DNA of 64,000 nt from Candidatus Schekmanbacteria bacterium (GCA_016219965.1 JACRJM010000004.1:310001-374000); one strand, 5' to 3'; numbered from the stretch's first letter, positions 45,087-59,882 are shown. Made by a program: numbers and translations. The notes: generated by a model from the sequence alone, not told the origin.

Positions 45087-46874
45087 ATGACTGATAAAAG
45101 GTTAAATGCTACAAGTACGATTGCTGCGGTTATACTTTTGTTTACTGCATGTTTTATCCTTTACAGGACGTCCCTTAAGGTTCCCTTTCTTTTCGATGAT
45201 CTGCTTTTCATTTCCTCTAATAGCAGCAGTAACTGGGGTATAAGTGTTTTTTTTCATAATATGGGGATATTTATTTCCAGGCCATTGCTTGGATTAAGCT
45301 TTGCCGCGAATTATGAGATATCCAGGAATTCACCGGCAGGCTTTCATATAGGCAATCTGATCATTCATTCTATAAACTGTTCGCTGATATTTTTTGTTCT
45401 GAAGAAACTGTTAAGAACAACATATGGTGAACTTACGATTCTTAATAAGAACATCGTGTCTTTTTCAGGGGCTTTGTTTTTTCTTGTACATCCACTCGCC
45501 ACGGAATCTGTAACCTATGTTTCCGGCAGGTCGTCACTCCTTTATACCATGTTTCTCCTTTTGTCAGTGCTGCTTTACATTTCATTTGAAGAAAACAAAG
45601 GTGAATGGAAATGGTTCTTCTATGGTTTCTCTTTGTTGGCATATGTTGCTTCTCTGGCAAGCAAGGAGATAGCGGCCATATGTCCTTTGATACTCATTGC
45701 GGTTATTTTCTTTTTTCTTTTGAGAGATAATAAGAAGTTAAATCTTATTCCAATACTTCCGTTCTTTTTTATTCCAATCGCGACTGTCCTTTTAAGGAAG
45801 GCTTCACTTTTAAGCGGGGCCAGCCCTGATGGAACTTCAAGAAATATAATAGTTCAGCTTATGACAGAAATATACGTATTGGCTGAATCTGTTTTCAAGG
45901 TGTTATTCCCTGTTAATCTTAATTTCGATCCTGATTATTCAGACATCACAACGCCCATTGATTCGGGATTTTTTATTGGACTCATTGTTTTAACTTTCAT
46001 GATTGCAGCAGTGTTTTATGTGAGAAAGAAAAATCCTTTTATTGTGTTTTCAATTTTATTTTTTTTGATCTCTTTTTCGCCGCATCTTTTTATACGTCTG
46101 CGTGACTACATGTCAGAACGCTGGCTTTATTTCCCTCTCATTTCTGTTTCATTTTTAATTGCCGGCATATTGGCAACAACGTCAGGAAAGAACCAGGCCA
46201 GAGGTTTTGTTAAATATTCCCCTGCGGCTATTATCTTTGTAGTTATTGTCATTTTCTCCGCTTTGACTTTAAGCCGTCTGGAAGTGTGGCAGAGCGCTGA
46301 TCTGATATGGACTGATACGGTAAAAAAATCCCCGGGAAAATTTCGTGTTCATGCAAATCTGGGGCATGTATTCTTAAGAGAAGAAAAGTTCCCTGAAGCT
46401 GAGAAAGAGCTTCTAAAGGCTATCAATATAAACAAGGAATATGCGGAAGTACATTATGATCTGGCCCAGGTATACAGCAATTTAGGCAAAGATGAATTAG
46501 CCTATGCGGAGTACGGGAATGCCTTAAAGTACATGACATATTACGATGACCCGGCTTATTCTGTTTATTATAACTCTATGATAAACATGGGTGTTATCTC
46601 TTTTAAGAATGGTGACAAGCAAAAAGCCATGGAATTATTTTCAAATGCAATTAAGCTGGACAACCGGTATCCGCAGGCATTCAATAATCTCGGGATAGTC
46701 TTTATGAACATGGGGGACATGGAAAAGGCTGAACTTAATTTCCTGATGGCTCTAAACAGAGACCCCAAATATGCAATGGCGTATTATAACCTTGCCGACG
46801 TGTATATAAAAGAAGGACGAAATGATGAAGCTGCAGAGATATTGAAAAAGGTAAAGTCCGTTAAACCTGATTAA
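45087..46874 (+). CDS. Polytopic glycosyltransferase-like protein with C-terminal TPRs
   Basis: A 595-residue protein (or 617 if started at the ATG at 45021). About ten membrane helices come first, then TPR units from about residue 425 (FRVHANLGHVFLREEKFPEA; AFNNLGIVFMNMGDMEKAEL). The motif LFDDLLFISSNS near the first periplasmic loop is the DD motif of TMTC/PMT-type O-mannosyltransferase-like proteins. It may glycosylate exported proteins with a lipid-linked sugar; this is inferred from the architecture. The second ATG is favoured since it directly precedes the first membrane helix, but neither has a strong Shine-Dalgarno. Its stop overlaps the convergent 46871-47398 gene by 4 bp. Confidence 0.82.
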   Translation: MTDKRLNATSTIAAVILLFTACFILYRTSLKVPFLFDDLLFISSNSSSNWGISVFFHNMGIFISRPLLGLSFAANYEISRNSPAGFHIGNLIIHSINCSLIFFVLKKLLRTTYGELTILNKNIVSFSGALFFLVHPLATESVTYVSGRSSLLYTMFLLLSVLLYISFEENKGEWKWFFYGFSLLAYVASLASKEIAAICPLILIAVIFFFLLRDNKKLNLIPILPFFFIPIATVLLRKASLLSGASPDGTSRNIIVQLMTEIYVLAESVFKVLFPVNLNFDPDYSDITTPIDSGFFIGLIVLTFMIAAVFYVRKKNPFIVFSILFFLISFSPHLFIRLRDYMSERWLYFPLISVSFLIAGILATTSGKNQARGFVKYSPAAIIFVVIVIFSALTLSRLEVWQSADLIWTDTVKKSPGKFRVHANLGHVFLREEKFPEAEKELLKAININKEYAEVHYDLAQVYSNLGKDELAYAEYGNALKYMTYYDDPAYSVYYNSMINMGVISFKNGDKQKAMELFSNAIKLDNRYPQAFNNLGIVFMNMGDMEKAELNFLMALNRDPKYAMAYYNLADVYIKEGRNDEAAEILKKVKSVKPD

Positions 46875-47398
46875 TCTTTACTCCATGTTATTCCCCGGTA
46901 ACCTGAACGGGTATTTCTGTAGCGAAGCGTTTCCGGCTCAATTTTAATTACCCTGTAATTAAAATCCGGGGAAAGTCTGGATTCATCTATTTTCATTATC
47001 TTCAGGCATTCACGGAATTTTGCAGGTGTTGACTTTCTGGAATAAACTGTTGCCTTTCCCCATATTTGCAGGCCCTTTGCTCCAAAAAAATCTTTCTTAG
47101 GGGCATACGGTGAGGCTATTGATGCTGCGACTTTTTTATTTTTGCTGAGGTTTACGAATTTTCCGCCTCCCTCTGAAAACATATAAATTATGAGACCGTC
47201 ATGCTTATACTCTATGGGAGTGACTCTAGGGACATCACGGTAAGTTGTACCAAGATGAAGAACGTTATTTTTATCCAGATAGCGGACAACCTCTTTCTCA
47301 AAATCTTCCGTAGTGATTTTTTCCTTTAATGTGATTCCATTTTTTTTGAGTATATCTCGGAGTTTTTCTGAGAATTTCGGGACATTTATCTTTGGCAT
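46871..47398 (-). CDS. FMN-binding split-barrel (pyridoxamine oxidase-like) protein, copy 1
   Basis: A 175-residue protein of the pyridoxamine 5'-phosphate oxidase-like fold. It has VLHLGTTYRDVPRVTPIEY, SEGGGKFVNLSKN, FFGAKGLQIWGKA and an RYRNTRSGYRGITW tail. Such proteins bind FMN, F420 or heme; which one cannot be told. A paralog at 59337-59882 shares the same blocks. AAGGATGAG precedes the ATG. It lies 28 bp downstream of tRNA-Gln and may share its promoter. Confidence 0.82.
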   Translation of the reverse strand: MPKINVPKFSEKLRDILKKNGITLKEKITTEDFEKEVVRYLDKNNVLHLGTTYRDVPRVTPIEYKHDGLIIYMFSEGGGKFVNLSKNKKVAASIASPYAPKKDFFGAKGLQIWGKATVYSRKSTPAKFRECLKIMKIDESRLSPDFNYRVIKIEPETLRYRNTRSGYRGITWSKD

Positions 47399-49183: not shown

Positions 49184-49375
49184 TAGTGTTTTGACAGCTC
49201 TTAAAAGTCAGGGAATTATATCCTTACTCTTTTCGATGGGGCAATAGAATTGTTTACACATTAAAAAAAATGACAGACTGCTTGCATTGGAAATTCATAG
49301 TGTTATCATATAAACTATAAGTTATAATATTTTGTAATTATGATGAAATTCTAACTATTGCTGAAGGTAGAGAAA

Positions 49376-51004
49376 ATGCTCTCTACAAGATTTACGAGAC
49401 TTTTAAGCTTCAAGCTGTTCTTCCTGCTTATGCTTCTCCTTGTCGTATTGTTTTCCTTGTACATGTACATCAACCTTAAACTTAACACCGATCATCTCAT
49501 GTCCGCAATAATCGCAAGTGCGAACAGATCAAGTGATCTTATAAAAAATTCCACAAGATACAGCATGCTTAAGAATCAGAAAGAGGATGTTGATCAGATA
49601 ATAACAACACTGAGCAGTCTTTCTGGAATGGATGGGATAAGGATATACAATAAAAAAGGGATTGTAATGTTTTCAGGCAATAAAGATGAGAACGGACGCG
49701 CTGTTGATATGAAGGCAGAGGCCTGCAACATCTGTCATAGCGAGAAAATACCTAAAGCAGCCCTTTCATCAACAAACCGTACCAGGATATTTAATTCTTC
49801 AAACGGACATAGGGTGTTAGGACTTATAAACCCGATTGAAAATGCTCCTGACTGTTCAAATGCCCCGTGCCATGCCCATCCCCCGGAAACAAAAATTCTC
49901 GGAGTCCTGGACATTAAAATGTCACTTGAACAGGTTGATAAAAATATCAGCGAAAGCCAGACCAAGATGATATATTTTGCGCTTCTTTTTATCCTGTCGG
50001 TAGCAATGGCATCCGGTGTGTTCATCTGGATAATGGTCCATAACCCCGTAAAGAAACTTACCATAGGTACACAGGAAATATCTAAAAGAAATTTTGATTA
50101 TAGGATTGATGTGAAGTCTGATGATGAAATAGGTGAACTGGCCAATTCCTTTAATTTTATGATGACGGAACTGAAGAAGGCTTATAACGAAATTACAAAC
50201 TGGTCAAAAAGCCTTGAATTAAGAGTGAAGGAAAAAACCGAAGAGCTTGAGAAAACTCAGTCACATATAGTCCAAATGGAGAAGATGGCGTCTCTTGGGA
50301 AGCTTTCAGCTACCGTTGCACATGAAATAAATAATCCGCTGGGCGGCATTTTAACGTATACAAAACTGCTTATGAGAAAGCTTGAAAAGGTCAATATTGG
50401 GTCACATGACCCCTCCATACTCGAATTTCTGAAAATAATTGAAAGCGAGTCCAAACGTTGCGGTAAAATAGTAAAAGATCTTCTGGTTTTCGCAAAGTCT
50501 TCTTCAGTCAACTTTTCCAGGGAAAATATAAAAAGCATAATAGAGAAAAGCATTGCTCTCGTAAATCATCATCTAGAGATAAAAAATATAAAAGTCGTGA
50601 AAAAATTACCTGATTCAGATTACTATTTGGCATGCGATTCAAACCAGATCCAGCAGGCATTTATAGCTTTGTTGATAAACTCTGTTGAAGCGATGCCTGT
50701 AGGAGGTACAATCACAATAGAAGTATTGCCTTTTAAAGAAGAAAATCAGGTCAGGATAAATATAACTGATACGGGAGTGGGAATTCCTGAAGAGATAATC
50801 CCAAATATTTTTGAGCCTTTTTTTACAACAAAAAAGGATGGTTCAGGCGTTGGACTTGGGCTGTCTGTGGTTTATGGAATAATTAAAAAACACAATGGAG
50901 ATATAAACGTTTATTCAAAAATCAATGAAGAGACAACTTTTACTATTGTTCTTCCGACAAATTTATCTGTCGGAGAACATGACATAATTGACCATGTTGT
51001 CTGA
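49376..51004 (+). CDS. Sensor histidine kinase with periplasmic heme-c motifs
   Basis: A 542-residue kinase. The frame opens with a TTG at 49358, but the ATG at 49376 is better placed. Membrane helices lie near 12-33 and 199-222. The periplasmic domain between them has CNICH (C117, C120, H121) and CSNAPCH (C160, C165, H166), a normal and a CX4CH heme-c motif. Then come HAMP, a coiled coil, the H-box SATVAHEINNPLGG and an ATPase ending GVGLGLSVVYGIIKKHNG. This resembles deltaproteobacterial diheme redox sensors. The NtrC regulator 23 bp downstream is the obvious partner. Confidence 0.9.
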   Translation: MLSTRFTRLLSFKLFFLLMLLLVVLFSLYMYINLKLNTDHLMSAIIASANRSSDLIKNSTRYSMLKNQKEDVDQIITTLSSLSGMDGIRIYNKKGIVMFSGNKDENGRAVDMKAEACNICHSEKIPKAALSSTNRTRIFNSSNGHRVLGLINPIENAPDCSNAPCHAHPPETKILGVLDIKMSLEQVDKNISESQTKMIYFALLFILSVAMASGVFIWIMVHNPVKKLTIGTQEISKRNFDYRIDVKSDDEIGELANSFNFMMTELKKAYNEITNWSKSLELRVKEKTEELEKTQSHIVQMEKMASLGKLSATVAHEINNPLGGILTYTKLLMRKLEKVNIGSHDPSILEFLKIIESESKRCGKIVKDLLVFAKSSSVNFSRENIKSIIEKSIALVNHHLEIKNIKVVKKLPDSDYYLACDSNQIQQAFIALLINSVEAMPVGGTITIEVLPFKEENQVRINITDTGVGIPEEIIPNIFEPFFTTKKDGSGVGLGLSVVYGIIKKHNGDINVYSKINEETTFTIVLPTNLSVGEHDIIDHVV

Positions 51005-51027
51005 AAAAAACAGGAGCTGAAAAATAT

Positions 51028-52386
51028 ATGACTAAAAATATTGGGATACTGATAGTTGATGATGAATTTTCCGTACGAAATTCCCTTTACAACTGGTTTA
51101 AGGAAGACGGCTACAGAGTTGAAGCTGCTGAAAATGGCGTAGAAGTACTGAAAAAACTCCAGGAAAACCCATGGGATATAATCCTTCTCGACATTAAAAT
51201 GCCGGGTATGGATGGAATGGAATTGCAAAAGCGCATAAACGAAATAGACAAGAGTATTACTATTATTTTTATGACCGCTTATGCGTCAATAGAAACGGCA
51301 GTGCAGGCTTTAAAATCAGGTGCATTTGACTATGTTACAAAGCCAATAGATCCTGATGATTTGAACCACATAATCCGCAATGCGATAAAACAAAAAGAGC
51401 TCATAGCTGAGAACATACAACTCCGGGAAAAAATCGAGGAGTTGTCCAATTATGATGAAATAATCGGCGAAAGTCCGGCGATGCAAAAAATATTCGGCCT
51501 TGTGGATATGGTTGTAAAAACTGATTCTACTGTAATGATCCGAGGGGAAAGCGGTACAGGAAAGGAGCTTGTGGCTAAGGCAATCCACAGCAAAAGCTCA
51601 AGACGTTATTTCCCTATTATTACTATAAATTGCGCTGCTTTTCCGGATACTCTGCTTGAGAGCGAACTATTCGGTCATGAAAAAGGGGCGTTTACAGGTG
51701 CGCAATACAGAAGAAAAGGGAAATTAGAGCTGGCACATGGAGGGACTATATTCTTTGATGAAATCGGGAATATCAGTTTAAAGACACAGGTAGACCTTCT
51801 CAGGGTCATAGAGACAAAACAGTTTGCGCGACTGGGGGGAAACGAAACAATAAATGTGGACTTCAGAATCATAGCAGCAACAAATAGTGATCTGGAGAAG
51901 GCAATAAAGGATGGTACTTTCAGAGAAGATCTCTATTACAGGCTTAACGTGTTTTCAATATTCCTTCCTCCATTGAGGGAAAGAATAAACGACATTCCTG
52001 TTCTCACCCAGCACTTCATTAAAAAGTTTGCTATATCAATGCATAAGAATATAACCGGAATTACGCCTGATGCAATGGATATCCTTGTACGTTATAACTG
52101 GCCGGGGAATGTCAGGGAGTTAGAAAATGCAGTAGAAAGAGCAATGGTCGTAGGTAAAGGCCCATTAATAAGAAGTGAAGATTTACCATTCCAAATCATT
52201 CCAGGTGCTTCTGCACTCTGTACAGACACGCTTGAGGACATTGAAAAAAACCACATATTGAAAATACTCAACCGTACAGACTGGAATATAACTCACGCGG
52301 CTGAAACATTACAAATCGACAGGGTGACACTTTACAATAAAATCAAAAAATACGAATTGACCAGAGAGAATGTTTCAGAACAGTAA
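51028..52386 (+). CDS. NtrC-family sigma-54 response regulator
   Basis: A 452-residue activator. The receiver has D11, D12 and phospho-site D55 (LLDIKMPGMDG). The AAA+ domain has GESGTGKELVAKAIH, the sigma-54 contact GAFTGA, and FREDLYYRLNVF. A Fis-type helix-turn-helix closes the protein (AETLQIDRVTLYNKIKKY). It must act with sigma-54, whose gene rpoN lies at 20.9-22.3 kb. It likely answers the heme kinase upstream. The downstream archaemetzincin start lies inside its last codons. Confidence 0.95.
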   Translation: MTKNIGILIVDDEFSVRNSLYNWFKEDGYRVEAAENGVEVLKKLQENPWDIILLDIKMPGMDGMELQKRINEIDKSITIIFMTAYASIETAVQALKSGAFDYVTKPIDPDDLNHIIRNAIKQKELIAENIQLREKIEELSNYDEIIGESPAMQKIFGLVDMVVKTDSTVMIRGESGTGKELVAKAIHSKSSRRYFPIITINCAAFPDTLLESELFGHEKGAFTGAQYRRKGKLELAHGGTIFFDEIGNISLKTQVDLLRVIETKQFARLGGNETINVDFRIIAATNSDLEKAIKDGTFREDLYYRLNVFSIFLPPLRERINDIPVLTQHFIKKFAISMHKNITGITPDAMDILVRYNWPGNVRELENAVERAMVVGKGPLIRSEDLPFQIIPGASALCTDTLEDIEKNHILKILNRTDWNITHAAETLQIDRVTLYNKIKKYELTRENVSEQ

Positions 52387-52954
52387 TAGGCAAATGTCCC
52401 TTATCAAGATTGTACCTATAAACCTTCCTGTTCATCTCGATATCGATTATGTTGCTGAGGTTGTTAATGACACGTTCAGAATTGACACTATCGTATCAGA
52501 TCTCAAAATTGATGTTTCGGATGCCTATGACGACAGGCGCAATCAGTATAGGTCTTCTGTAATGCTTGCAAAACTCGATGAAACGGCAGGAACAACAGGA
52601 ACAGGGACAAAGATTTTAGGAATAACAGAGCTTGATCTGTTTATGCCAATACTGACATTTGTTTTCGGAGAGGCACAATTAGACGGACCTGCTTCGGTTA
52701 TCTCAAGTTTTAGGCTGAGGAATGAGTTTTACGGATTGCCTGAGAACAATGTGTTGTTGAATGAAAGAATCTGCAAAGAGGCGATACATGAAATAGCTCA
52801 TAACTTCGGCCTTCTGCACTGCGATGACTATATGTGTGTAATGAAGTCATCCACCTATGTGGAAGATATCGATATTAAAAATATGGAATTGTGCAGTTCA
52901 TGCAAAGAACTGTTAGAAAACACGATGTCAGCCTGTGAAGCTCCACACATTTAA
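52370..52954 (+). CDS. Archaemetzincin-type zinc metalloprotease
   Basis: A 194-residue protein with the archaemetzincin motif HEIAHNFGLLH (140-150) followed by C151, C156 and the pair C175/C178 (LCSSCK), which form the second zinc site. Family members are cytosolic aminopeptidase-like proteases common in archaea and sporadic in bacteria. The ATG at 52370 overlaps the regulator gene by 17 bp; a second ATG at 52394 gives a more usual N-terminus (MSLIKIVPINLPV). No signal peptide. Its coupling to the kinase-regulator pair suggests a role in the same response, which is inference. Confidence 0.88.
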   Translation: MFQNSNRQMSLIKIVPINLPVHLDIDYVAEVVNDTFRIDTIVSDLKIDVSDAYDDRRNQYRSSVMLAKLDETAGTTGTGTKILGITELDLFMPILTFVFGEAQLDGPASVISSFRLRNEFYGLPENNVLLNERICKEAIHEIAHNFGLLHCDDYMCVMKSSTYVEDIDIKNMELCSSCKELLENTMSACEAPHI

Positions 52955-52981: not shown

Positions 52982-53857
52982 TCAGTTAACTTCCATCCTT
53001 AGACTGTTAAATACGTGCAGGAAACTTTTGAATATTTCCTCAGTCAATACGTTATTGTGCTGAGGTCCTCTGTTGTTAGTAGTCTTTCTGCTGAGGTTTC
53101 TAACTATTTGCTTTTTATGCCCGGCCAGTAAATGATCTATTATCTGCTTTCCATGGGAGACAAATAGTGGCGCAGCCTCTTTGCCCGGAAAAAGATTATT
53201 TATGTCTTTTTCTATTTCGAAAGGCTTTATTTTCATAATCCATCCGGAGCCGTAAGGATCGTTATGAATAGCAGAAAAATTATTGATGAGATTCTCATTT
53301 ACAATGTGTACTAACCCGCTGACCGGTGAAAGAGCAGTAATCGTTCCATACTCGTCGAATATCCAGCAGAATGGCTGTCCTTGAAGAACAACACTTCCTT
53401 TATGAGGCAAAATTACATCTTTTATATGGTATAGAAATTTACAGATGAAACTGTCCACTCCTGTTATGACTAGCTTATTGTCACTTAAGTCAGCCCAGGA
53501 GTGGATCTTATAGTAGTAGAAGTCATTCACAATCTTAAATCTGAAGAGTTCTCCAAAATATTTTTTTTCGTCGTCTGTGTAATAATGAGTCTTGCTGTTT
53601 TTTATATGTTCCAGAGTATCGACCTCGATGTATTTATTCTCAGATTCTGCAATAATATCCCCAAGCGTTGAGTATTCGGCTGCATCACTAAAAGCGATAT
53701 TGAATGGGCAGAACTTGCAATTGTAATCATAATCGCACAGTTTGTATGCTATCTGCCCCGCGGACATCCAGATACACTTCAATTCGCCGTCAGGAATTAT
53801 CTGTCCGCCATGTTGAGCTTTTATATCATCATATTCCTTGATGTTTTTCATAAACAT
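52982..53857 (-). CDS. Cys-rich GcvH-like protein lacking the lipoyl lysine
   Basis: A 291-residue soluble protein. The N-terminus has CIWMSAGQIAYKLCDYDYN then CKFCPFN, with C28, C41, C47 and C50 as a likely metal or iron-sulfur site. Residues about 130-215 match the glycine cleavage H fold: ALSPVSGLVHIVNENL and HNDPYGSGWIMKIKP. When aligned on LP...SPVSG, the position of the lipoyl Lys is Y170, so it cannot carry lipoate there. It is last in the operon with NrfD- and HybA-like genes and so probably works with that complex. It is read convergently with the archaemetzincin gene. Confidence 0.8.
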   Translation of the reverse strand: MFMKNIKEYDDIKAQHGGQIIPDGELKCIWMSAGQIAYKLCDYDYNCKFCPFNIAFSDAAEYSTLGDIIAESENKYIEVDTLEHIKNSKTHYYTDDEKKYFGELFRFKIVNDFYYYKIHSWADLSDNKLVITGVDSFICKFLYHIKDVILPHKGSVVLQGQPFCWIFDEYGTITALSPVSGLVHIVNENLINNFSAIHNDPYGSGWIMKIKPFEIEKDINNLFPGKEAAPLFVSHGKQIIDHLLAGHKKQIVRNLSRKTTNNRGPQHNNVLTEEIFKSFLHVFNSLRMEVN

Positions 53858-53886
53858 TACTCACGGTTCCTGAGACCAGATTAGCT

Positions 53887-55095
53887 TTATACTTTTGGAT
53901 AGGACGCGATTGTCCCCGCAGTTTCGTCCTGTAAAAATTCAGTCGTATATTCCTCAAACTTTTCCGTGGACTCTTCACTTTTTGCAGGTTGAAAGATCGT
54001 GAGATACTTAACTGCAAGTGCAAATACGACAAACCCTATTGCTACGATGAAAGCTGTTATTGATATCTCCATCCATGTAGGGAAGTAATCAACCCCTGAT
54101 GATGCAGCCATACCGGTGATACTGACATTCATTCTGTTCATGACAAAACCTATTACTACCATGAACGCTGATATAAACAGTCCTTTTTTGTTAATCCTGA
54201 CCTTTGGCATTGCAAACAGGATAAAAGGAATGATTACGCCTATAAATATTTCTGCAAGGAAAAGCGAGCGTTCCATTCCTGGGACGAGAAGAAGAGGTAG
54301 CACCCCTCTATGGGTGATATCCAGAATCTTTAATACGAAATAGCAGCCAAGGACTACCACTATTACCCTGCTTATTCCTTCAAGAAGGTCAATTTCAAGT
54401 TCCTTCCTGAAAAAACGGTTACTCAGGAACGATTCAAATATTACCATGGACAATCCTGCCGCAATTGCTGAAACAAAGAAAAAGAGCGGCAAAATCGGTG
54501 AATACCAGAGCCCGTTAAGCTTTTCCGGAACTATGAGGAACAATGTTCCAAGCGATGACTGGTGAAGAGTGGAAAGAAGAAACCCGGTAATTACGAGCGG
54601 TATGGAAATCTTCCTCAGTATACGCGATGGACGTTCCATGTTGAACTTCTCAAAAACTATGGGGAGAAACTCAAGAGCAAGCACAGTGGAATAAAGCATT
54701 ACGCACCATGCTACCTCAAACATTACGGAATGCGGATTCCACATAACCAGAGGATGCCAGATATTGTATGGTTTCCCCAGGTCATAAAGAAGGGCTGTGG
54801 ATACAAGGATGTAGCCAAGAAATGCAGTCAGAACAGTGGGCCTTATTATGGGTTTGTATTTTTTCATGTTAAATATGTAGACCGCAGCCGTTATTGTAAA
54901 TCCGCCTGCAGCCAGGCCTACACCGCAAAGCACATCAAACCCTATCCACAGGCCCCACGGGAACTGGTCACTCAGAGCTGTAGAAGCTCCAAGCCCTTTT
55001 ATGAACCTGTATCCCGTAGAGTAGATGCCAAGAAGCATGATGACAGCTATAACACCCCTCCAGAATGTAAGCTTGGGAAATTGTATTGTTTTCAT
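53887..55095 (-). CDS. NrfD/HybB-type membrane quinone-binding subunit
   Basis: A 402-residue integral membrane protein with about ten helices. The family motifs are DQFPWGLWIGFDVLCGVGLA, YDLGKPYNIWHPLVMWNPH and FEVAWCVMLYSTVLALEF. Such subunits exchange electrons with menaquinone and may be redox linked to ion movement. The frame opens at a TTG at 55104; an ATG at 55095, nine nt after GGAGG, is preferred (ATG 55101 also possible). It follows the 4Fe-4S subunit gene by 27 bp. No heme c or catalytic subunit is encoded nearby. Confidence 0.88.
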   Translation of the reverse strand: MKTIQFPKLTFWRGVIAVIMLLGIYSTGYRFIKGLGASTALSDQFPWGLWIGFDVLCGVGLAAGGFTITAAVYIFNMKKYKPIIRPTVLTAFLGYILVSTALLYDLGKPYNIWHPLVMWNPHSVMFEVAWCVMLYSTVLALEFLPIVFEKFNMERPSRILRKISIPLVITGFLLSTLHQSSLGTLFLIVPEKLNGLWYSPILPLFFFVSAIAAGLSMVIFESFLSNRFFRKELEIDLLEGISRVIVVVLGCYFVLKILDITHRGVLPLLLVPGMERSLFLAEIFIGVIIPFILFAMPKVRINKKGLFISAFMVVIGFVMNRMNVSITGMAASSGVDYFPTWMEISITAFIVAIGFVVFALAVKYLTIFQPAKSEESTEKFEEYTTEFLQDETAGTIASYPKV

Positions 55096-55122
55096 GGTCA
55101 TCAACCTCCAGATGGTTTATTG

Positions 55123-55890
55123 CTACTTGCTATCCTTTTTGTTCAGTGATTTTTCTTTATCTTTCTCCATCAATTCATGTAAGCTCACCTCGTTTTTCCT
55201 GTTTGTTAACCAGGCAATCCCGCCCATAATGACTCCTCCCATGATTACTATATCTGGAATCATGGATAATACTTTCCATGTAAGCATGGGCATAGGATCT
55301 TTTGCCAGGTCTGTCCTGAACCCGAGTTCGCTGAAAGAAACTCCGGCGAGAAACATCGTAGAAGTACCTCCTACTTCATTTTCTCCGTATATTTGATTGA
55401 TATATTTATCCGGCTCTGCTTCAATCCTTGATCTTCCTTCTTCAAGAAGCGCTTCCCTGTCACCGAATGTTGTCGCTCCATACTGGCAGGCTTCAGCACA
55501 TGCAGTCTGCAATCCCTTAGCAAGCCTTTCTGCACAGAATATGCATTTTCTTATTCTCGGAAGAGGATTACTCCACTCATATTTTGGAACACTAAAGGGG
55601 CAGGCCACCATGCAGTATCTGCAGCCTATACATTTATCCTCGTCATAAACAACAGGTCCAGCGCTTGTCTTATGCAAAGCTCCGACAGGACATACTGATG
55701 CACAGCTTGGATTGCTGCAATGCATACACAACTTTCTTACATAGATCCCCTTGAATTCCTTTACAACTGTATATGTCTTCCATGAAAGTTCTTCAGTGTC
55801 TCCTTCGGGGAGATTATTTGCCCTCTTGCATGCTCCAACGCACTCAAGGCATCCTACACACTTTGTGGTGTCAATCAACAGTGACTTCAT
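55123..55890 (-). CDS. HybA-like four-cluster ferredoxin subunit with C-terminal membrane anchor
   Basis: A 255-residue protein with four 4Fe-4S motifs: CVGCLECVGAC, CMHCSNPSCASVC, CIGCRYCMVACPF and CIFCAERLAKG...CAEAC. A C-terminal helix (IPDIVIMGGVIMGGIAWL) is followed by a Lys-rich tail. The ATG at 55890 has AAGGAGG 7 nt upstream, so the GTG at 55908 is not the start. Unlike HybA it has no Tat signal: the first cluster begins at residue 11. It should pass electrons between the NrfD-like subunit and an unknown partner. Confidence 0.88.
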   Translation of the reverse strand: MKSLLIDTTKCVGCLECVGACKRANNLPEGDTEELSWKTYTVVKEFKGIYVRKLCMHCSNPSCASVCPVGALHKTSAGPVVYDEDKCIGCRYCMVACPFSVPKYEWSNPLPRIRKCIFCAERLAKGLQTACAEACQYGATTFGDREALLEEGRSRIEAEPDKYINQIYGENEVGGTSTMFLAGVSFSELGFRTDLAKDPMPMLTWKVLSMIPDIVIMGGVIMGGIAWLTNRKNEVSLHELMEKDKEKSLNKKDSK

Positions 55891-55972
55891 CTTGCCACCT
55901 CCTTTCACCTATCAGCATATTCCTCAGTTTCCTAAAAGCCCGGTCATCAATTAACACTGTCTTTCATTCTGC

Positions 55973-56698
55973 TCAGCTCTTTAAAAAGTTTTTCTCGAAA
56001 ATAGCCCAGCTTTCGTCATCGAGATATTCAAGAAGCCCGTCAATAATCTCTCCGCCATCCTGAATCGTAGCAAAGTCAGGACAAAGTCCTAAGCTTCTTG
56101 CCATCATTGTTTCTTTGAATCTCTGAACTTCGCCCTTTAGCCAGAGAGCTGCTTCCTTAGCTACTTTCATGCTCCTGATATTTTCACTCAGGTTGCTGGG
56201 TTTTATGGCACAGAGCCAACCGTAAGTATAAGGATCCTTTTTAATTGCATCCGGCTGATCCAGCAACATATGGTTAACACTGCATACAACTCCGTCTATA
56301 GGTGACTGAAAAACCGCTTTTCTGTTTCCCTGTTTGATTGAAAAGACCTTTTCACCCTGTTTTACTTCTCTTCCAATAGGCGGAAGATCGACTTCATTAA
56401 TTCTCCCTAAACTGCGCTGAGCAAAGTCATCTATTCCAACCTTAACGTATCCGGAAATAAGAATATTTGCCCATGTATGTCCCTTGTGGAAAAAAACTCC
56501 CATCGGGATTCTGTAACTGTTCTCGCTGAATCCCCTTATTCCCCTTGTTGACCCTGTCAGTTGAATTTCTTCAGAGACAAATGCTTTTTTCTCACCTGCA
56601 TAAACAAGTTTTCCCTGTTTTTTTGCTTCATATGACTGAATTGCAAGATCGACCAGCACAAACATAATGATGGTTGCTACTACGAGTAATACTACCAT
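55973..56698 (-). CDS. Membrane-anchored GcvH-like protein lacking the lipoyl lysine
   Basis: A 241-residue protein. The frame opens at 56722, but the ATG at 56698 has AAGGAGG about 9 nt upstream. Residues 2-20 form a membrane helix directly at the N-terminus. The GcvH domain follows: KGHTWANILISGYVKVGIDD, VDLPPIGREVKQGEKVFSIK, SPIDGVVCSVNHML and DPYTYGWLCAIKP. Aligned without gaps to GcvH, the lipoyl Lys position is N125, with Arg-Lys next to it. It is first in the operon with the HybA-like and NrfD-like genes. The domain may be an assembly or docking module of the complex. Confidence 0.82.
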   Translation of the reverse strand: MVVLLVVATIIMFVLVDLAIQSYEAKKQGKLVYAGEKKAFVSEEIQLTGSTRGIRGFSENSYRIPMGVFFHKGHTWANILISGYVKVGIDDFAQRSLGRINEVDLPPIGREVKQGEKVFSIKQGNRKAVFQSPIDGVVCSVNHMLLDQPDAIKKDPYTYGWLCAIKPSNLSENIRSMKVAKEAALWLKGEVQRFKETMMARSLGLCPDFATIQDGGEIIDGLLEYLDDESWAIFEKNFLKS

Positions 56699-56897
56699 TG
56701 TAATCCCCTCCTTTCTCTCCATTTTAAGTTGTTATTTGTTTCTGCTTCTGCTTTTACATAGTGCAAATAACATGCCTAATCTGTTTGCTGAAAAGAAGTT
56801 GAATACAAAAGCATTTTTTTCCATGGATATTCAAAGTGTTAAGAAATTAAACGAATTGTCGTGTTGCTGAGAATGGATTTTTTCAATAGGAAGAAGT

Positions 56898-56998: not shown

Positions 56999-57013
56999 GT
57001 TGAATAATTCAAC
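56999..57013. promoter_or_regulatory. Perfect palindromic operator candidate
   Basis: GTTGAATAATTCAAC is a perfect 7-1-7 palindrome, about 94 bp upstream of the rubrerythrin -35 box. Together with the imperfect copy at 56898 it may bind a dimeric regulator controlling one or both divergent units. It resembles no site I know with certainty; a Fur/PerR-like box is a loose comparison. Confidence 0.5.
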
Positions 57014-57203: not shown

Positions 57204-57773
57204 ATGGGAATTAAGGGGTCATTGACTGAAAAAAATCTGATTGCAGCGTTTGCCGGAGAATCGCAGGCGCGAAACCGTTATACTTATTATGCGAGTCTTG
57301 CAAAGAAAGAAGGATATGAGCAGATATCAGCAATATTTTTGGAAACAGCTGATAATGAGAAGGAACATGCTAAGGTTTTCTTTAGACTACTTGAAGAAGG
57401 GGAGGCTGTTGTAAATGCTTCTTATCCTGTTTCACTTGGAAATACACTGGCAAATCTGAAAGCTGCTGCCGAAGGAGAGAAGATGGAGTGGTCTACGCTT
57501 TACCCTGAGTTTGCGAGAGTTGCCGGCGAGGAAGGGTTTCAGGAGGTTAAAAAGGCATTCTTGATGATAGCAAGGGTTGAGATAGAACACGAGAAACGCT
57601 ATAATAAACTTCTAGAGAATATTGCCTCTGACATGGTTTTTAGAAAGAATACCGAAACCTCATGGAAATGCAGAAACTGCGGTTACGTTCAATCTTCTGC
57701 AAGTGCACCTGATAAATGCCCGGCATGTTCACATCCGAAGGCTTATTTTGAGATTCATAGTGAGAATTATTGA
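57204..57773 (+). CDS. rbr: Rubrerythrin
   Basis: A 189-residue peroxide-scavenging protein. The four-helix diiron domain has FAGESQARNRYTYYASLA, ETADNEKEHAKVFFRLLEEG and ARVEIEHEKRYNKLL. The C-terminal rubredoxin-like domain has CRNCGYVQ and CPACSHP. It reduces hydrogen peroxide in anaerobes. AGGAGG lies about 9 nt before the ATG. It is transcribed away from the HybA/NrfD operon and followed by moeB on the same strand after 107 bp. Confidence 0.96.
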   Translation: MGIKGSLTEKNLIAAFAGESQARNRYTYYASLAKKEGYEQISAIFLETADNEKEHAKVFFRLLEEGEAVVNASYPVSLGNTLANLKAAAEGEKMEWSTLYPEFARVAGEEGFQEVKKAFLMIARVEIEHEKRYNKLLENIASDMVFRKNTETSWKCRNCGYVQSSASAPDKCPACSHPKAYFEIHSENY

Positions 57774-57880
57774 TTACTATAAGGTTATATGTTTTAGTGC
57801 CTCACTCTTGACAAAAATAAAAGATTGTGGTTTGTAGCCGTTTCCTTAAGTTATAACAAACTCTAATAACCGGGTTATCT

Positions 57881-58693
57881 ATGGCAGGTTTTTCAGAAAA
57901 ACAGATTGAACGTTACAGCAGGCATATAATATTGCCGGAAGTTGGCGGTAAAGGGCAAAAAAAACTTCTTGAATCGAAAGTTCTCGTTGTAGGTGCCGGA
58001 GGTCTTGGTTCGCCTTCCATATACTATCTTGCAGCAGCCGGCATTGGAACAATAGGTATTATAGATGCTGACATAGTGGAGTTAAGTAACCTTCAGAGAC
58101 AGATTATTCATTCTACCCATGACCTTGGTAAACTTAAGGTAGAATCCGCTAAGGAAACTGTTTTAGGGTTAAATGATGATGTAAATGTGATAACTTACAA
58201 AGAGCGCCTGGACTCATCTAATATAATGGGAATAATAAAAGATTATGATATTGTTCTCGATGGGACTGATAATTTCCCTACGAGATATCTTATAAATGAT
58301 GCCTGCTATCTTACACGAAAGACAAATATTCATGGGAGTATATTCCGTTTTGAAGGTCAGGCTACAGTTTTTAAGCCTGATGCCGGACCATGCTACAGAT
58401 GTCTTTATCCTGAGCCTCCTCCTCCAGGTGCTGTTCCAAGTTGTCAGGAAGCAGGAGTGCTTGGAGTGTTACCAGGGATAATTGGTGTTATTCAAGCTAT
58501 TGAAACAATAAAAGTTTTGCTTGATATTGGTTCACCTCTTATAGGCAGACTTTTAATGTATGACGCACTTACAATGGAGTTTCGTGAGGTCAGGATAAGA
58601 AAAGATCCGGATTGTCCTTTGTGCGGAGAAAAACCAACTATCAAAGCCTTAGTTGACTATGTCCAGTTTTGCGGCATAAGAAATGAATCGTGA
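57881..58693 (+). CDS. moeB: ThiF/MoeB-family adenylyltransferase
   Basis: A 270-residue E1-like enzyme that adenylates the C-terminus of a small sulfur-carrier protein. The ATP-binding motif is VVGAGGLGSPSIYYLAAAGI. The Asp of VLDGTDNFPTRYLINDACY and the Cys in VPSCQEAGVLGVLPG are conserved. Zinc cysteines are in CYRCLYP and CPLCGEKP. No rhodanese domain is attached. The carrier (MoaD- or ThiS-like) is not encoded here. A TusA-like gene follows 160 bp downstream, suggesting a sulfur-transfer role. Confidence 0.92.
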   Translation: MAGFSEKQIERYSRHIILPEVGGKGQKKLLESKVLVVGAGGLGSPSIYYLAAAGIGTIGIIDADIVELSNLQRQIIHSTHDLGKLKVESAKETVLGLNDDVNVITYKERLDSSNIMGIIKDYDIVLDGTDNFPTRYLINDACYLTRKTNIHGSIFRFEGQATVFKPDAGPCYRCLYPEPPPPGAVPSCQEAGVLGVLPGIIGVIQAIETIKVLLDIGSPLIGRLLMYDALTMEFREVRIRKDPDCPLCGEKPTIKALVDYVQFCGIRNES

Positions 58694-59336: not shown

Positions 59337-59882
59337 ATGGCCCGTGTTACTGTTGCAAAAGCTACTGAATTTGAAATTGCGGCATTTCAAAAAAGCGGAA
59401 TTGAACTTAAAAATCCTACGGCTGAAGAGGTAGAAAAGGTAATTAAACATTATCTTGCAGCAAATAATGTACTTCATCTTGCAACCTGCAAGGATAATAT
59501 TCCACGTTCGACGCCTCTTGAATATCATAGCGAAGGGATGAATGTTTATATAATCTCTGAGGGAGGCGGGAAATTTGCAAATCTGAAGGATAATCCAAAG
59601 GTTTCATATTCCATTGCTTCAGTTTATAAACCTCTTGAAGATTTTTTTAGTGCAAGAGGACTTCAGGTATGGGGTACTGCGGAAGTTTGCACCAGAGATT
59701 CAAACCCTTCTGTATTCGAAGAGGGTTTAAGAGTTATAAAACCGGAAAATGTTTTAAAGCAGTTAGGTATTACGGAATTGCCCAAGAGTTTTAATTACAA
59801 ACTTATAAAAATCGTACCTGATAAAGCTACTTACCAGCATCTCAGAGCTGGTTACAGGTATGTCACATGGTATAGGGAGTAA
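59337..59882 (+). CDS. FMN-binding split-barrel (pyridoxamine oxidase-like) protein, copy 2
   Basis: A 181-residue paralog of the 46871-47398 protein. Matching blocks are NNVLHLATCKDNIPRSTPLE, SEGGGKFANLKDN, FFSARGLQVWGTA and HLRAGYRYVTWYRE. The N-terminus differs and there is a short insert near residue 140. Both copies keep the same order of motifs, so they probably share a cofactor. The exported Ig-like protein gene starts 5 bp downstream. Confidence 0.85.
   Translation: MARVTVAKATEFEIAAFQKSGIELKNPTAEEVEKVIKHYLAANNVLHLATCKDNIPRSTPLEYHSEGMNVYIISEGGGKFANLKDNPKVSYSIASVYKPLEDFFSARGLQVWGTAEVCTRDSNPSVFEEGLRVIKPENVLKQLGITELPKSFNYKLIKIVPDKATYQHLRAGYRYVTWYRE

Follow-up and report, generated by a model that had tools for sequence, protein, structure and literature searches.

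What do proteins of the glycine cleavage H-protein (GcvH) fold do when the lysine that would carry lipoate is missing, and with which partners do they work? The question is raised by a 64,000-nucleotide stretch of Candidatus Schekmanbacteria bacterium (GCA_016219965.1 JACRJM010000004.1:310001-374000), here called the window, from whose first letter all feature coordinates are counted. Open reading frame (ORF) calling places four minus-strand genes at 52982-56698, in the order GcvH-A, an iron-sulfur (FeS) protein, the membrane subunit NrfD and GcvH-B. A sequence-only reading, made earlier from the DNA itself, had described this four-gene unit. Its genes are real, with Pfam support for each (GCV_H, ORF 55973-56722, 1.9e-23, and ORF 52982-53857, 1.3e-14; NrfD, ORF 53887-55104, 8.9e-25; 4Fe-4S dicluster domains, ORF 55123-55908, 7.7e-21), but the unit is larger: a histidine kinase with c-type heme motifs, a sigma-54 regulator and an archaemetzincin, omitted from that description, belong to it as well. 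Their genes (49358-52954, plus strand) lie directly downstream of the operon and are convergent with it. We propose, with a probability of roughly 0.45, that the locus is a quinone-linked electron-transfer module under sigma-54/two-component control, in which the non-lipoylated GcvH-fold proteins would serve in the cytoplasm for docking or as adaptors.

GcvH-fold proteins without the lipoyl lysine

Aligned with the canonical GcvH of the same genome, which has its Lys in the context ESVKA, the window proteins carry Asn125 (GcvH-A) and Tyr170 (GcvH-B) in the lipoyl-Lys column, the same residues that the sequence-only reading had named. The numbering of Asn125 is correct, given a Shine-Dalgarno-like AAGGAGG ahead of the GcvH-A start (ATG 56698), a motif also present ahead of the FeS gene (ATG 55890). 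Scores against TIGR00527 reach 72.1 and 48.9 bits, under the equivalog cut-off of 115.85, and a canonical, lipoylated GcvH identity is ruled out for both proteins by the absent Lys together with these scores. AlphaFold models of the two match solved H-proteins, with TM-scores on the target mostly of 0.79-0.90, and the GcvH fold is, as modelled, retained in both.

Nor do homologues generally keep the residue. The Lys column is without Lys in 139 of 150 aligned GcvH-like members, being mostly Gly, Glu, Asp, Ser or Asn, and the other 11 do have a Lys, though not in a setting that resembles ESVKA; the ExxK motif has also lost its Glu in the family. A tree that included 20 ordinary GcvH or GcvH-related sequences sets the 81 sampled members on one side of a branch with a support of 0.999. 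On sequence grounds, the non-Lys GcvH-fold proteins are a conserved, monophyletic family. Nearly all members (169/175) have a DGG motif in a C-terminal extension. An N-terminal transmembrane helix is found in 59 of 146, with the domain predicted inside in 49 of these 59, and another 84 of the 146 lack such a helix and have three or more Cys ahead of the domain. The pattern CxWM...C...CxxC occurs in 64 of 185 members, this Cys-rich N-terminus being confined to GcvH-B-type proteins, plus one weak match on the strand opposite another gene. The typical NrfD-type locus therefore encodes one anchored and one Cys-rich GcvH-like protein.

Other GcvH-related proteins were seen alongside. A second paralogue in the source genome (L002, G000:C3:570265-570624) keeps its Lys; here and in L049 (G001:C166) the residue stands in the non-canonical context QTRKWIGKL, with FeS proteins nearby in G001. 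A further GcvH-like class (L044, L050/L037, L047, L062, L065), encoded directly downstream of NrfD, starts with a conserved transmembrane segment (ATKG-EYL or similar). In L047 it is fused to NrfD, and the transmembrane count would place the GcvH domain outside the cell.

Conserved neighbours and regulation of the locus

A scan of the genome collection with one peptide pattern returned 79 loci with GcvH-like genes, spread over Ignavibacteria, Bacteroidetes, Desulfobacterota, Nitrospinae, Nitrospirae, KSB1, Neomarinimicrobiota, Acidobacteria, Rokubacteria, Gemmatimonadetes, Eisenbacteria, Abyssobacteria, Myxococcales and SAR324; some lineages, such as Desulfobacula, are over-represented, and locus counts are not independent events. 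Neighbours were counted in 88 loci by six-frame profile searches, and 48 of these loci were well flanked (at least 4 kb on both sides). Near the GcvH-like genes of these 48 stand a kinase (42), a regulator (40) and an archaemetzincin (40), followed by NrfD (24), FeS (24), either of these two (24), an HdrA-like protein (11) and a cytochrome with at least four CxxCH motifs (9). Kinase, regulator and archaemetzincin are thus more constant partners than NrfD/FeS, and the NrfD/HybA pair, on which the sequence-only reading centred, is not the defining partner. Among 60 sampled genomes, archaemetzincin is present in 11 of the 13 with a long GcvH-like protein vs 5 of the 47 without (Fisher p 8e-7).

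The full gene set recurs in L036, from the same order, in distant genomes and in part in L037, a contig of Candidatus Schekmanbacteria GWA2_38_11 that ends within the locus. In Desulfobacterales loci, the GcvH-like pair is still accompanied by kinase, regulator and protease and often has HdrA-, HdrBC- and MTHFR-like genes nearby. Several loci of Desulfobacterales and relatives (L080, L083, L091, L096, L098, L101, L107) hold the pair and archaemetzincin/regulator/kinase without NrfD, often near HdrA-like flavoproteins, and the kinases of such loci lack the CxxCH heme motifs seen in NrfD-type loci. Overall, CxxCH is present in 31 of 51 linked histidine kinases, 29 of the 31 also carrying Cx4CH. 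The window archaemetzincin, whose gene shares 17 bases with the end of that for the regulator, has an intact HExxHxxGxxHCx4CxM...CxxC motif.

Upstream of the operon, a sigma-54 promoter-like site stands in the window as AGGCATGTTATTTGCA, with TGGCACGCTATTTGCA, TGGCATGGTATTTGCA and TGGCACAGAGTATGCA as the corresponding sites in L036, L037 and L038. Sites that match 9 or more of 10 defined bases occur in 41 of 77 operon upstream regions vs 0.4% of same-sized control stretches from the same loci, and at 8 of 10 bases in 58 of 77 vs 7.3%. A two-mismatch scan of the whole window gave 25 matches against 28 by chance, no excess; the argument is one of placement and conservation. In the window, and in L036 and L037 of its order, a GTTGA-N5-TCAAC palindrome precedes the sigma-54 site by ca. 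200 bp, and in L044 by 75 bp; genome-wide it occurs 7 times, against 4 for the reversed pattern, and is not specific outside the operon promoter. Sigma-54/two-component regulation of the locus is well supported.

Features of the locus and its upstream region (positions in the window)
Feature	Position	Strand	Support or remark
Membrane histidine kinase; periplasmic sensor with CxxCH and Cx4CH heme-c motifs, HAMP, HisKA, HATPase	49358..51004	+	HATPase_c 8.5e-26; weak Mcp40H-20_sensor 4.2e-4
NtrC-type sigma-54-activating response regulator; receiver, AAA+, Fis-type HTH	51028..52386	+	Sigma54_activat 6.1e-71; Response_reg 2.1e-34; HTH_8
Archaemetzincin-type zinc protease	52370..52954	+	NF033823 158.2 bits, cut-off 145
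GcvH-fold protein B; soluble, Cys-rich N-terminus (CIWM...KLC...CKFC), Tyr170 at lipoyl-Lys position	52982..53857	-	
NrfD-type membrane subunit, HybB/HmcC subgroup	53887..55095	-	PF03916 8.9e-25; HmcC model 5e-103, below cut-off
HybA/HmcB-like four-cluster ferredoxin; C-terminal transmembrane helix, no Tat signal	55123..55890	-	HmcB model 8.8e-74, below cut-off
GcvH-fold protein A; N-terminal transmembrane anchor, domain predicted inside, Asn125 at lipoyl-Lys position, C-terminal QDGG	55973..56698	-	
Sigma-54 -24/-12 promoter-like site AGGCATGTTATTTGCA, upstream of the four-gene operon	56762..56777	-	Conserved in position in L036, L037 and further loci
Palindrome GTTGAATAATTCAAC, candidate upstream binding site for the response regulator	56999..57013	.	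1 in window vs 0.07 expected

Genes for a rubrerythrin and a ThiF/MoeB-family protein (57204-58693, plus strand) adjoin the operon divergently and were left out of the locus, not being recurrent in relatives. Paralogous small proteins of 175 and 181 amino acids, encoded on opposite strands at 46871-47398 (minus) and 59337-59882 (plus), flank the locus and may, by eye, resemble flavoproteins of the pyridoxamine-phosphate-oxidase type.

The redox unit and the competing explanations

By NCBIfam models, the window NrfD is nearest HmcC/HybB and its FeS protein nearest HmcB/HybA, at 345 and 248 bits respectively, with the HmcC and HmcB equivalog cut-offs (550 and 420) not reached. FeS proteins of the HmcBC/HybAB type are exported by the twin-arginine translocation (Tat) pathway. 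Comparison of N-termini splits the FeS relatives into Tat-bearing and signal-less forms, a split that the NrfD tree largely follows, NrfD loop charges being alike in both groups; the window protein, starting MKSLLIDTTKC, has no Tat or other export signal. In L037, GcvH-A and GcvH-B match those of the window at 60% and 51%, while NrfD and FeS are of the other clade (40% and 45% to the window; the L037 NrfD is 68% identical to that of L044). It is thus probable that this close relative swapped its electron-transfer cassette and kept its GcvH-like genes.

By ORFs and Pfam, the operon itself lacks genes for a catalytic dehydrogenase, a molybdopterin subunit or a heme-c electron-transfer subunit, as the sequence-only reading had noted, and in relatives no gene for a catalytic oxidoreductase stands consistently next to the GcvH-like genes. 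The search for such a subunit covered recurrent families of at least four members, with no molybdopterin or NiFe protein among those identified and some small families unnamed. Among candidate redox partners, only HdrA-type flavoproteins and multiheme cytochromes recur: HdrA-like genes lie near 17 of 88 related loci, with none in the window operon, and cytochromes with at least four CxxCH are found in 18 of 88. The GcvH-like operon of L064 and that of L112 have two kinases and several multiheme cytochromes, with 9-14 CxxCH, around them.

Gene content, conserved linkage, Lys loss, the retained (modelled) fold and the sigma-54 sites are what sequence and comparison establish, and the docking or adaptor role in an electron-transfer module is the reading favoured from them. 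It is supported by the cross-phylum linkage, archaemetzincin co-occurrence, and enrichment of sigma-54 sites with a co-encoded activator and upstream palindrome; by the loss of Lys and ExxK in a single clade with GcvH-fold models and a predicted inside domain topology; and by the kinship of NrfD/FeS to the Hmc and Hyb subunits, with the cassette exchanged and both GcvH-like genes kept. The membrane kinase, with its periplasmic c-heme motifs, would sense a redox or ligand signal and phosphorylate the sigma-54 activator, which would bind GTTGA-N5-TCAAC and switch on the GcvH-A/FeS/NrfD/GcvH-B operon from its -24/-12 promoter. NrfD and FeS would form an HmcBC/HybAB-like unit exchanging electrons with menaquinone. 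GcvH-A, predicted to be anchored on the cytoplasmic side of the membrane, and GcvH-B, predicted soluble and probably binding a metal or Fe-S centre through its N-terminal Cys cluster, would carry no lipoate and may link this unit, as docking or adaptor subunits, to a partner or to signalling. A component of the locus is probably the substrate that archaemetzincin processes or turns over.

Several points weigh against this reading. NrfD/FeS are not within reach in about half of the loci, and no electron partner was found. The window sigma-54 site is only a two-mismatch match, unremarkable window-wide, and the regulator is assigned to the promoter by genome proximity and motif conservation only. 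Cues to the membrane side conflict, as the FeS protein lacks a Tat signal yet its NrfD keeps a HybB-like charge orientation and the C-terminal tail is positive.

That the lipoyl fold was reused for docking or structure, as the sequence-only reading proposed, holds as far as the kept fold and the lost Lys of a monophyletic family go; docking is a role that we infer, and signalling is a serious alternative, because receiver domains are found fused to GcvH domains. On this rather unlikely alternative, the complex would serve signalling and not respiration: NrfD/FeS (or Hdr) would read the redox state of quinone or another carrier, and the GcvH-fold proteins would relay it to, or be the output of, the two-component system. 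The greater constancy of kinase, regulator and archaemetzincin and the lack of a recurring catalytic subunit fit this, as does L041, where receivers are fused to both GcvH-like proteins and the searched stretch holds no sigma-54 site and no separate sigma-54 regulator. Such fusions, however, occur in just 1 of 88 loci, NrfD/FeS and multiheme cytochromes resemble full electron-transfer parts, and the sigma-54 sites mark the operon as a target of regulation, which suits an effector. Doubtful, too, is a cross-phylum signalling-respiratory unit, in which the lipoyl-less GcvH would be a phospho-signal output or adaptor coupling the two-component system (with c-heme motifs in NrfD-type loci) to interchangeable NrfD/FeS or Hdr modules, archaemetzincin being a dedicated processing protease.

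A further reading, less likely than the mainly signalling complex, is an ordinary Hmc/Cbc-like quinone:cytochrome oxidoreductase with its cytochrome encoded elsewhere and the GcvH-fold proteins as assembly or stability factors. It would account for the multiheme cytochromes, some of which are encoded between or beside NrfD and GcvH genes (L041, L065, L071), and for the Tat signals on many FeS relatives, but neither the signal-less window FeS protein nor the Desulfobacterales loci, which keep the GcvH-like pair and kinase/regulator/protease without any NrfD/FeS, agree with it. It is highly improbable that lipoate or another group is carried on a shifted Lys beside the old site: a basic residue does follow the old position in 51 of 73 NrfD-type members (Lys in 31), but it is Arg in the window GcvH-A (20 members in all), Gly in GcvH-B and mostly Asn or His in loci without NrfD, with the Glu of ExxK gone.

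Relation to known systems and implications

With GcvH (PF01597/TIGR00527) the window proteins share fold (TM-score about 0.8-0.9 on target) and Pfam family, and they differ in the missing lipoyl Lys and ExxK context, the sub-cut-off TIGR00527 score, the N-terminal transmembrane or Cys-rich extension, the added C-terminal DGG region and their neighbours. The window FeS protein and NrfD resemble HmcBC of Desulfovibrio and HybAB of hydrogenase 2 as a four-cluster FeS and NrfD pair for which these are the best NCBIfam models; unlike them, the window pair scores below the equivalog cut-offs, has no HmcA cytochrome or hydrogenase in the operon, lacks a Tat signal on FeS and is accompanied by proteins of the GcvH fold. 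Heme-c-sensor two-component systems with NtrC-type regulators likewise join c-heme motifs in a periplasmic kinase sensor to a sigma-54 activator, whereas that of the window is linked to archaemetzincin and GcvH-fold target genes. LbpA of the sulfur-oxidising sHdr system is also a GcvH-like protein outside glycine cleavage. It stands with redox/Hdr-type proteins, where the present family has HdrA-like genes near 17 of 88 loci and none in the window operon, and it carries lipoate (eLife 2018, PMC6067878); the window family lacks the Lys and is linked instead to archaemetzincin and a two-component system. The window protease shares the full active-site and Cys motif of archaemetzincin (peptidase M54; PLoS One 2012, PMC3427221) and scores above the NF033823 cut-off; it differs in being bacterial and fixed to a redox/regulatory locus, a context not found in the papers searched.

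An open-access literature search, outside which most subscription journals lie, found no description of the gene combination, and the GcvH-like/kinase/regulator/archaemetzincin set, recurrent across unrelated phyla, appears undescribed. Across many phyla, genes likely annotated as 'glycine cleavage system protein H' would then belong to an undescribed regulated redox locus, with an effect on metabolic predictions. The locus also gives the bacterial archaemetzincin a fixed genomic context, and it shows a lipoyl carrier fold reused without its cofactor, beside exchangeable electron-transfer modules.

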